Shown here in pieces: positions 15,745 through 18,296 of a stretch of DNA of 33,091 nucleotides. This DNA is from Syntrophomonadaceae bacterium (GTDB lineage: Bacteria; Bacillota; Dethiobacteria; DTU022; UBA8154), in the NCBI GenBank assembly GCA_003563385.1, contig PWRZ01000040.1:1-33091 (forward strand). Direction: 5' to 3'. Positions within the stretch are counted from its first letter, which is position 1; every line of letters begins with the position of its first letter. The notes beneath the pieces were generated by a model. The model searched no databases. It saw only the letters and a list, made by a program, of their open reading frames with translations, and was not told where the DNA came from. Made by a program: the position numbers and the translations under genes.

Positions 15745-15836
15745 AGAAGAAAATTATTATAACGGCGGGTGTATATATTTCCGCTTGTCCCGGTAGAAAT
15801 CGTTTTAGCGCCCCATTGGCTGAAAACCAATGTTAC

Positions 15837-15865
15837 TTGACATGTTCCAGCAAAGAGGATAAAAT
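15837..15865 (+). promoter_or_regulatory. Strong sigma-A promoter for RNA candidate or rny leader
   Basis: TTGACA (15837-15842), a 17-bp spacer and TAAAAT (15860-15865) form the best sigma-A promoter in the window. Transcription would start near 15872. Confidence 0.75.
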
Positions 15866-15871
15866 TGTTTC

Positions 15872-16049
15872 AGAAATGGGTTAGAGCAGTCTTGTGGGAT
15901 AGCTGCTTTAAAATAGATTTGACCATGCCTTTCCATGTATATGGATGCTCATAAAGTATAATATACAAGCGATCAGTATGTTATTTAAAAGGGAAATGTG
16001 GCCATTTCTATTTTAAAAAAGCTGTGTACCCCACAGCTTATTTTATTTT
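15872..16049 (+). ncRNA. Candidate structured RNA or attenuator leader upstream of rny
   Basis: From the promoter start near 15872 to the T-rich tract at about 16049 the RNA would be roughly 178 nt. Hairpins seen: A, TTAGAGCAG/CTGCTTTAA (15881-15911); B, TCCAT/ATGGA with GTAT loop (15932-15945); C, ATAATATAC/GTATGTTAT (15958-15984); D, TTTAAAA plus GAAATG against CATTTC plus TTTTAAA, with TGGC loop (15984-16017); E, the terminator AAGCTGTG/CACAGCTT (16019-16039). The 5' end AGAAATGG (15872-15879) can also pair perfectly with CCATTTCT (16002-16009), competing with hairpin D. It could be an independent small RNA, or the rny leader with attenuation. No known RNA family was recognised; a 6S-like fold was considered but not supported. 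Confidence 0.5.
16019..16049 (+). terminator. Intrinsic terminator upstream of rny
   Basis: An 8-bp stem, AAGCTGTG/CACAGCTT, with a TACCC loop is followed by ATTTTATTTTA. The T run is interrupted, so termination may be partial. It lies 54 bases before the rny start. Confidence 0.7.
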
Positions 16050-16102
16050 ATAAAAATAACAATAATGTTTTAAAAACAAAACGCAGGAGGTGACATCTTT
16101 AA

Positions 16103-17641
16103 TTGGGATACCTGTACATTATCACCGGTATTATCGGTATTATTCTCGGGGTGGGCTGCGGTTATTTTATTCGAAAATATCTTGCAGAAGCGAAAATTGC
16201 CTCTGCTGAAGAAGCGGCAAAAAAAATCGTTAAAGAGGCAGAAGAAAAATCGCAATCACTTAAAAAAGAAAAAATTTTGGAAGCCAAAGAAGAAGTTCAC
16301 AGGCTGAGAAGTGAGTTCGAAAAAGAAACCAAGGAGCGCAGGCAGGAGCTGCAGAAGCTGGAAAGGCGCATGCTGCAGAAGGAGGAAGCTCTTGACAAGA
16401 AGACATCCTTCCTGGAGAAAAAAGAGGAGGAATTCAAGGGAAAAGAGGCCGAGACCGCTGCCGTTCAAGAAAAGCTGGACCAGGTATACAAGCAGCAGCT
16501 GACCGAGCTGGAGAAAATTTCGGGAATGTCCAGCGAAGAGGCAAAAGACCTTCTCTTAACGAGGGTAAGAGAAGAAATACAGCACGAAATCGCACAGATG
16601 ATTAAAGATATCGAATCCCAGGCACGTGAAGATGCGGAGAAAAAGGCCCGTGATATTATCACCCAGGCTATCCAGCGCTGCGCGGCCGACCATGTTTCCG
16701 AGTCTACTGTGTCGGTGGTTAACCTTCCCAATGATGAAATGAAAGGACGGATCATCGGCAGGGAGGGGCGCAATATCCGCACCCTGGAAACTTTGACCGG
16801 CATTGATTTGATCATCGATGATACCCCCGAAGCTGTAATACTTTCCGGTTTTGATCCCATAAGGAGAGAAGTGGCCCGCATTGCATTGGAGAAGCTAATT
16901 TCCGATGGGCGCATCCATCCGGCACGTATAGAAGAAATGGTGGACAAGGCGCAGCAGGAAGTTGATGTTCAGGTACGTGAAGAGGGTGAGCAGGCCGCTT
17001 TTGAAGTAGGCGTCCACAATCTGCACCCGGAACTGATAAAAATGCTCGGAAGGCTGCGGTTTCGCACCAGTTACGGCCAGAATGTACTGAAGCACTCCAT
17101 TGAAGTGGCCCACCTGGCCGGTATTATGGCCTCCGAGCTGGGCCTGGACGTCAAGATGGCCAAAAGGGCCGGACTGCTGCATGACCTCGGGAAAGCCCTC
17201 GACCATGAAACCGAAGGCCCCCACGTGGTTAACGGGGCGGAGCTCGTTAAAAAACACCGAGAGTCGGCTGAAATAACCAACGCCGTGGCCGCTCATCACG
17301 GTGACTTTGAACCGCAAACGATGGAGGCCGTTTTAATACAGGCTGCCGACGCCATTTCTGCGGCAAGGCCCGGCGCGAGAAGAGAAACCCTGGAGGCATA
17401 TATAAAGCGCCTGGAGAAGCTCGAGGAAATTGCCGACTCTTTTGACGGGGTCGAAAAGGCCTACGCCATTCAGGCGGGGCGGGAAATACGCATCATGGTA
17501 AAGCCGGAAAAAATAGATGACCTGGCTGCTACCAAGGTGGCGAGGGACATAGTTAAGAAAATTGAAGGTGAGCTGGAATACCCGGGGCAGATTAAAGTTA
17601 CTGTTATCAGGGAAACAAGAGCCGTCGAATATGCCCGTTAG
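16103..17641 (+). CDS. rny: Ribonuclease Y
   Basis: A 512-residue membrane-anchored endoribonuclease that starts decay of many mRNAs in Firmicutes. Residues about 1-22 form the membrane anchor ([20 protein letters not shown]), about 30-200 a long charged coiled coil, about 205-270 a KH domain with [15 protein letters not shown], and about 325-420 an HD domain with the metal motif [10 protein letters not shown]. Length matches the family (about 510-520). The start is a TTG at 16103, nine bases after GGAGGTGA. A terminator-like hairpin just upstream suggests leader control or separate transcription from an RNA gene. A clear terminator follows. Confidence 0.96.
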
Positions 17642-17723: not shown

Positions 17724-17783
17724 TTAATTTTATATTGAGTGGACAGCCCCACTATACATATACTTGAAGAGGTGTTTCCTGTT

Positions 17784-18296
17784 ATGAAAACGGTAGAGTC
17801 CTCCCCTGACATGTCCAGCGCCGGCATTTTAATATCCCTGCTTGTGCGCTTCCCCGAAATTTTTTCGATAAACTATAATTTAATTGAAGCCCGCTTCAGG
17901 CTTTCTTTTATGTTGAAGGGCACACTGGAGAAAGAACATTACATAAAATTTAAGCGGCATTTTATAAAGTGTGTGCAGGCTTACAGGGATGTGGCAAACA
18001 TAGACACCCTTCTGCCGAAGATAGGTAGAAGAACGGTTAACATGTGGACCCTGCTGAATGTTACCTGGGAGAAAGAAACCATTTCCTTTGAGGAGGTAGA
18101 CCTCGTCAGAAGCCTTGTTTTGAGTGAATTTAAAAATGACGTTATCATTGACCTGCGCGGCAATAGATGTCTTGATGACGACCTTTCTGCCGGTGACAAA
18201 AACATCATTGAATACATGCTCCCGCCTCAAAGCAGGCGGGAAGAAAACCTCTTTGCTTTCAGAGAGGCCGGCAAAGTGTATGTCTTTGACAAATGA
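17784..18296 (+). CDS. Uncharacterised protein, gene between rny and ymdB
   Basis: A 170-residue soluble protein of no family I recognise. It is mixed helical, with no membrane segment and no obvious catalytic motif. Features include FPEIFSINYNLIEARFRLSFML, a basic helix (KFKRHFIKCVQAYRD) and an acidic C-terminal half ending in a beta strand (KVYVFDK). ATG 17784 has GAGGTG nine bases upstream; a GTG at 17739 in the same frame is an alternative. A sigma-H-type promoter precedes it. Its end lies 13 bases before the preferred start of ymdB, or overlaps the alternative ymdB ATG at 18280, so the two genes are a tight pair. That suggests work in the same stationary-phase process; this is inference only. 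Confidence 0.75.
   Translation: MKTVESSPDMSSAGILISLLVRFPEIFSINYNLIEARFRLSFMLKGTLEKEHYIKFKRHFIKCVQAYRDVANIDTLLPKIGRRTVNMWTLLNVTWEKETISFEEVDLVRSLVLSEFKNDVIIDLRGNRCLDDDLSAGDKNIIEYMLPPQSRREENLFAFREAGKVYVFDK

Follow-up and report, generated by a model that had tools for sequence, protein, structure and literature searches.

What occupies the gap between recA and rny in this genome, and does it act on rny? In Bacillota, RNase Y initiates the turnover of many mRNAs; most of what is known about how its abundance is controlled comes from B. subtilis, in which RNase Y cleaves its own transcript. Within the stretch of DNA analyzed here (33,091 nucleotides from a Syntrophomonadaceae bacterium, hereafter the window), the recA stop codon (15744) and the TTG start codon of rny (16103) enclose 358 bases (15745 to 16102) that, as the initial annotation had stated, hold no gene. 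We take the downstream ORF to be rny, based on family knowledge and the gene order recA-rny-ymdB-spoVS. A 185-amino-acid ORF of unknown function (17739 to 18296) lies between rny and the ymdB-like gene, and a similar ORF follows rny in L028. Judged from its sequence and that of its relatives, the region is probably a cis-acting transcription attenuator of rny. Computation reveals a conserved anatomy that is restricted to rny and adopts mutually exclusive, co-varying folds, from which we infer that transcription terminates here in cells and that this termination is controlled. The features on which this reading depends are collected in Table 1.

Table 1. Features of the recA-rny region and their coordinates in the window.
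Feature	Position	Strand	Basis
Sigma-A type promoter, TTGACA-17-TAAAAT	15837..15865	+	Best promoter-like site of the region, 11/12
Antiterminator segment AT (TGTGGGATAGCT)	15893..15904	+	MFE fold, energetics, co-variation in related families
Match to covariance model R1	15903..16047	+	96.7 bits; R1 built in part from the window sequence
P1 5' strand (TTTAAAATAGATTTGACCAT)	15907..15926	+	MFE fold; near-invariant in 19 f1 members
Hairpin TCCAT/ATGGA at the P2 place	15932..15945	+	Sequence; relatives have GCC/GGC hairpins there
P1 3' strand (GTGGCCATTTCTATTTTAAA)	15998..16017	+	Fold; covariance-model alignment
Intrinsic terminator hairpin AAGCTGTG-TACCC-CACAGCTT	16019..16039	+	Sequence; conserved in relatives
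Terminator U tract	16040..16050	+	Sequence
rny ribosome binding site (AGGAGGTG)	16085..16092	+	Sequence
Presumed rny (RNase Y), the regulated gene	16103..17641	+	ORF

Two other elements of the initial annotation were recovered at the positions given in Table 1: the promoter, which is the top site of the region, and a terminator-like fifth hairpin, which is followed by ATTTTATTTT. Transcription is predicted to start near 15872, giving a leader of approximately 175 nt up to the end of the terminator and approximately 230 nt up to the rny start codon. Among 85 related leaders, an 11/12 upstream promoter is kept in 80, whereas no site between the terminator and the start of rny scores better than in shuffled sequence. 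Polymerase would therefore be expected to traverse the terminator in order to transcribe rny. The order of elements is that of an attenuator, with promoter, intrinsic terminator, and gene in succession and no other promoter seen. Near-identical stems of the terminator hairpin recur in f1, the family to which the window belongs (19 members), and in family f3 (30 members), and a U-rich tract lies 3' of the hairpin in the aligned relatives. Attenuation by a leader peptide found little to build on, as a short ORF with a Shine-Dalgarno sequence occurred in just 6/82 leaders, at inconsistent places.

The same hairpin invites two simpler readings. It could be nothing more than the transcription terminator of recA, with the remainder due to chance, since recA immediately precedes the region in the window and has no other obvious terminator. 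However, nearly all relatives have a promoter downstream of recA and upstream of the hairpin, and elsewhere an ORF separates recA from that promoter while the element stays with rny; P2, P3, the terminator, and AT also co-vary. We find this reading scarcely credible. Alternatively, the hairpin might not work as a terminator and might instead stabilize the 5' end of the mRNA, holding off RNase J1 once RNase Y has cut the leader. The hairpin is located 40 to 95 nt before the start codon, and PMC10303841 describes cleavage of the B. subtilis rny 5' UTR by RNase Y followed by RNase J1 trimming to about -15. A blocking hairpin, however, needs neither the U tract seen after it in aligned relatives nor a co-varying antiterminator, and we regard such a role as very improbable.

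The distribution of the element was established with two covariance models, R1 (built from 19 f1 leaders) and R2 (built from 30 f3 leaders). R1 finds the element in 46/71 genomes of the order, in which rny orthologues are present in 65/71. All sense matches (46/46) are located 31 to 95 nt upstream of rny, and the 10 other matches fall on the opposite strand of these same sites. R2 retrieves nearly all of f3, the larger sister family, plus parts of the remaining class (the class that holds Dethiobacter), and leaders of the same plan occur in families f6 to f8. The element stays with rny where another, recX-like ORF intervenes after recA. Within the class, one R2 match (G097) is not at rny. Across 349 genomes spread over the phylum, the only R2 matches outside the class were four weak ones (G179, G203, G319, and G352), none near rny, and these were taken as chance. 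In a single genome (G040:C305:12093-12423; L188 and L230), approximately 330 extra bases lie between the leader element and rny.

These data bear on whether the region is instead an independent gene for a trans-acting small RNA with its own terminator, with rny transcribed through accidental read-through or from an unseen promoter. Such a gene would account for the strong promoter, the dedicated terminator, the product of approximately 175 nt, and the compact fold. However, the element has no copy at any other locus in the 71 genomes and is not lost when recX-like ORFs intervene, no rny promoter downstream of it exceeds the shuffle level, and the co-variation between AT and terminator described below would have no role in a free small RNA. 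The free small RNA that the initial annotation had offered as one of two options is therefore disfavored, given the single copy, the constant placement just upstream of rny, and the lack of a visible second rny promoter; we consider it quite improbable. The other option, a switchable structured leader belonging to rny, is upheld by its conservation, its place just 5' of rny, and its two exclusive folds.

The element also does not correspond to a known RNA class, in agreement with the initial annotation. At gathering score, no Rfam 15 family (T-box included) matched the window or eight relatives, and the best permissive matches in the window (E up to 10) were hairpin look-alikes far below gathering score. 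6S RNA (RF00013) resembles the element in length, in its rod-like fold, and in its paired 5' and 3' regions; it differs in that the window element lacks an Rfam match and the canonical 6S RNA of this genome is encoded elsewhere (G000:C157:9367-9552; 97 bits).

In the window, the RNA from 15871 to 16051 folds better than 200/200 shuffles (z = -3.49). Without its last 39 bases, which form the terminator segment, the same RNA is not unusual (z = -1.32); thus, it is pairing with the terminator segment that provides the extra stability. The fold of four hairpins (A to D) given in the initial annotation is not borne out: the leader without the terminator segment does not fold unusually well, and hairpin D is not conserved. 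The same annotation had proposed an exact pairing of AGAAATGG with CCATTTCT as the basis of two exclusive folds. The two sequences are indeed exact complements (15873 to 15880 and 16002 to 16009), but the pairing is not conserved: AGAAATGG is not kept in relatives, and CCATTTCT is kept as part of the P1 3' strand, whose partner is 15907 to 15926. By our estimate, an 8-base exact complement arises by chance in about one in four RNAs of 180 bases. Two exclusive folds do exist, although not the ones named; the real competitors are the pairing of AT with the terminator and the terminator hairpin itself.

Comparison of recA-rny gaps extracted at the levels of family, order, and class revealed a common plan in all families, consisting of the promoter, a 5' segment of 30 to 80 nt, the P1 5' strand, a variable domain, the P1 3' strand, and the terminator, with rny following soon after. 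The variable domain usually contains two hairpins, P2 (of the GCC/GGC type) and P3; in the covariance-model alignment, the window does not retain the canonical pairs of P2. On this sequence comparison, the P1 helix is preserved across families although its sequence changes, each strand changing with its partner: UUAAAAUAGA/UCUAUUUUAA in f1, AAGAGAAAG/CUUUCUCUU in f3, AUAAAGAG/CUCUUUAU in f6, AUAAGAGAA/UUCUCUUUAU in f8, and CUUAUACCG/CGGUAUAAG in f7. Conservation and covariation in relatives, which the initial annotation had put forward as a check, gave a mixed outcome. The element is conserved and f3 covaries, while f1 gave no P1 signal because P1 is invariant there. RNAalifold on a mixed-family MAFFT alignment (A2) was misaligned and lost P1, and an alignment of f3 only (A3) was used instead. 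In A3, the named structure is paired in 94% of cells, compared with 38 to 60% in slid-partner controls, and cells with double changes number 28 versus 8.3 in shuffles, mostly in P2, P3, and the terminator. P2 covaries within f3.

The second fold centers on AT. In the window, AT is predicted to pair with both terminator arms (16020 to 16025 and 16030 to 16035), continuing P1. In f3, a conserved 5' motif, GUUCAGnnCAUAACU, can pair with terminator AGCUGUGUCCUGGAC, and GUUCAG/CUGGAC (AT/terminator) is paired in 92% of cells versus 17 to 47% when slid. In f6, GUGUGGGU pairs with GCCCGCAC/ACCCACAC in the loop and 3' arm of the terminator (91% versus 14 to 77% slid), and altered terminator loops are accompanied by altered AT segments (GUGCGGAU with GUCCGCAC in L267; GUGCGUUU with GAACGCAU in L266). 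Two f5 leaders form near-perfect AT duplexes of 13 to 17 bp (z = -5.8 and -4.8), though their terminators differ. A conserved candidate antiterminator that is exclusive with the terminator was accordingly found in f3, f5, and f6, and AT energies in f7 and f8 are supportive.

Across 82 leaders, the pairing of AT with its own terminator averaged -12.1 kcal/mol, compared with -9.3 kcal/mol when partners were permuted, and 0/5000 permutations were as low. Permutation over all families leaves shared ancestry in; this problem is reduced by permuting within families, which gave 0/5000 for f6, 71/5000 for f3, and 228/5000 for f1. Part of the complementarity between AT and terminator follows from the terminator's own palindrome. 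The comparison of fold energies given below does not rely on four f6 leaders (L246, L249, L253, and L254) in which the terminator stem was mis-delimited (1 bp). The AT signal of f1 is weak (mean z = -0.3), the exceptions being the window itself and L206. For the window, the antiterminated fold is predicted at -48.9 kcal/mol and the terminator-enforced fold at -45.2 kcal/mol, approximately 3.7 kcal/mol apart, with a predicted terminator probability of 0.01. In contrast, prediction favors the terminator in 16/20 f1 leaders; thus, the balance differs between relatives.

A leader of this architecture might be a metabolite riboswitch, in which a small molecule binds the domain enclosed by P1 and stabilizes P1 and, with it, the antiterminator. 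The layout is pbuE-like in that P1 competes with the terminator that immediately follows it, and conserved unpaired stretches occur in f3 (GGAUAGAU and a loop with UGUA) and in f6 (UUUUACUGG). To our knowledge, the cores of known metabolite aptamers stay alike across phyla. In this element, however, the enclosed domain varies between families of one class: the features common to the domains of f1, f3, and f6 are limited to an AU-rich stretch and a hairpin of the GCC/GGC type, and no aptamer core is conserved across the three. No metabolic gene is attached. A metabolite riboswitch is therefore less likely, and we judge it improbable.

We return to the attenuator reading in its general form. RNA polymerase would start from the promoter (15837 to 15865) and make a leader of approximately 175 nt that ends in the intrinsic terminator. 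In the "on" state, P1 would form and zip outward, and AT would pair with the terminator arms and loop, blocking the terminator so that polymerase continues into rny. In the "off" state, formation of the terminator hairpin would halt transcription ahead of rny. The P1-enclosed domain may respond to the activity of free RNase Y or to a decay-machinery protein, providing feedback on RNase Y. This is our leading candidate for the trigger, at somewhat less than even odds. The AU-rich composition of the domain and its strong divergence between families favor this reading, although no sensor site is evident in a domain so poorly conserved between families. Binding would fit the timing more easily than cleavage, since the decision must precede the departure of polymerase from the terminator.

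Known systems supply parts of this scheme. PMC10303841 reports that RNase Y downregulates its own expression in B. subtilis through cuts in the 164-nt leader and the early ORF, which makes feedback by RNase Y plausible here. In B. subtilis, the ribosome is the block to RNase J1 after this cleavage. The B. subtilis rny 5' UTR shares with the present leader the gene, a sigma-A promoter, and a long AU-rich leader beside stem-loops (164 nt there; approximately 230 nt here). It differs in that control is by cleavage, with no terminator or antiterminator described in the sections consulted (PMC10303841). The two leaders are unrelated; the control by leader cleavage that the initial annotation had suggested is known for the B. 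subtilis one. The E. coli rne 5' UTR sensor is likewise a structured leader of a gene for a decay-initiating endoribonuclease that may sense the enzyme, but its feedback operates via transcript cleavage rather than a terminator, as summarized in PMC10303841. Adenine-type attenuators such as pbuE share the abutment of the P1 3' strand on the terminator 5' arm and the exclusive antiterminator and terminator folds. Here, in contrast, the gene encodes an endoribonuclease, the enclosed domain is not conserved, and AT lies outside P1 and extends it.

Terminators ahead of rny are not confined to this class. Among named Bacillota rny loci, a terminator lies no more than 180 nt ahead of the rny start in 27/79, compared with 0.5% in shuffles; outside the class, most of these have CCGAG/CTCGG stems, whereas no terminator was found before rny at the Bacillus-type loci among those examined. 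In an exploratory analysis, 9/19 tested leaders contained a long-range helix ending at or inside the terminator 5' arm (p < 0.05), which suggests that related attenuators may be common. The CCGAG/CTCGG terminator is itself surprisingly conserved (L070 to L072, L074, L079, L080, L083, L086, L097, L102, L103, L107, L113, and L115 to L117). Separately, Clostridium and Peptostreptococcus rny regions (L075, L078, L092, and L106) share a motif resembling ACCTTTC-N-GCTTTTATATTTACTA near the promoter, before it in some and after it in others. The most far-reaching interpretation is that these leaders represent an undescribed RNA family through which RNase Y controls its own gene by attenuation: the nascent leader would detect free RNase Y, or the complex containing it, and adopt the antiterminator or the terminator accordingly, with equivalent CCGAG/CTCGG rny leaders in several other Bacillota lineages. 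We advance it tentatively and consider it rather doubtful in this full form.

In the open-access literature, we found reports of RNase Y autoregulation by cleavage only, and none of an rny attenuator; relative to the literature searched, terminator-based control of RNase Y would be new. The covariance models, together with the map of AT, P1, and terminator, make attenuation directly testable. If the attenuator is real, then transcription itself, a layer for which we found no open-access report for an mRNA-decay enzyme, would carry part of the control of RNase Y.
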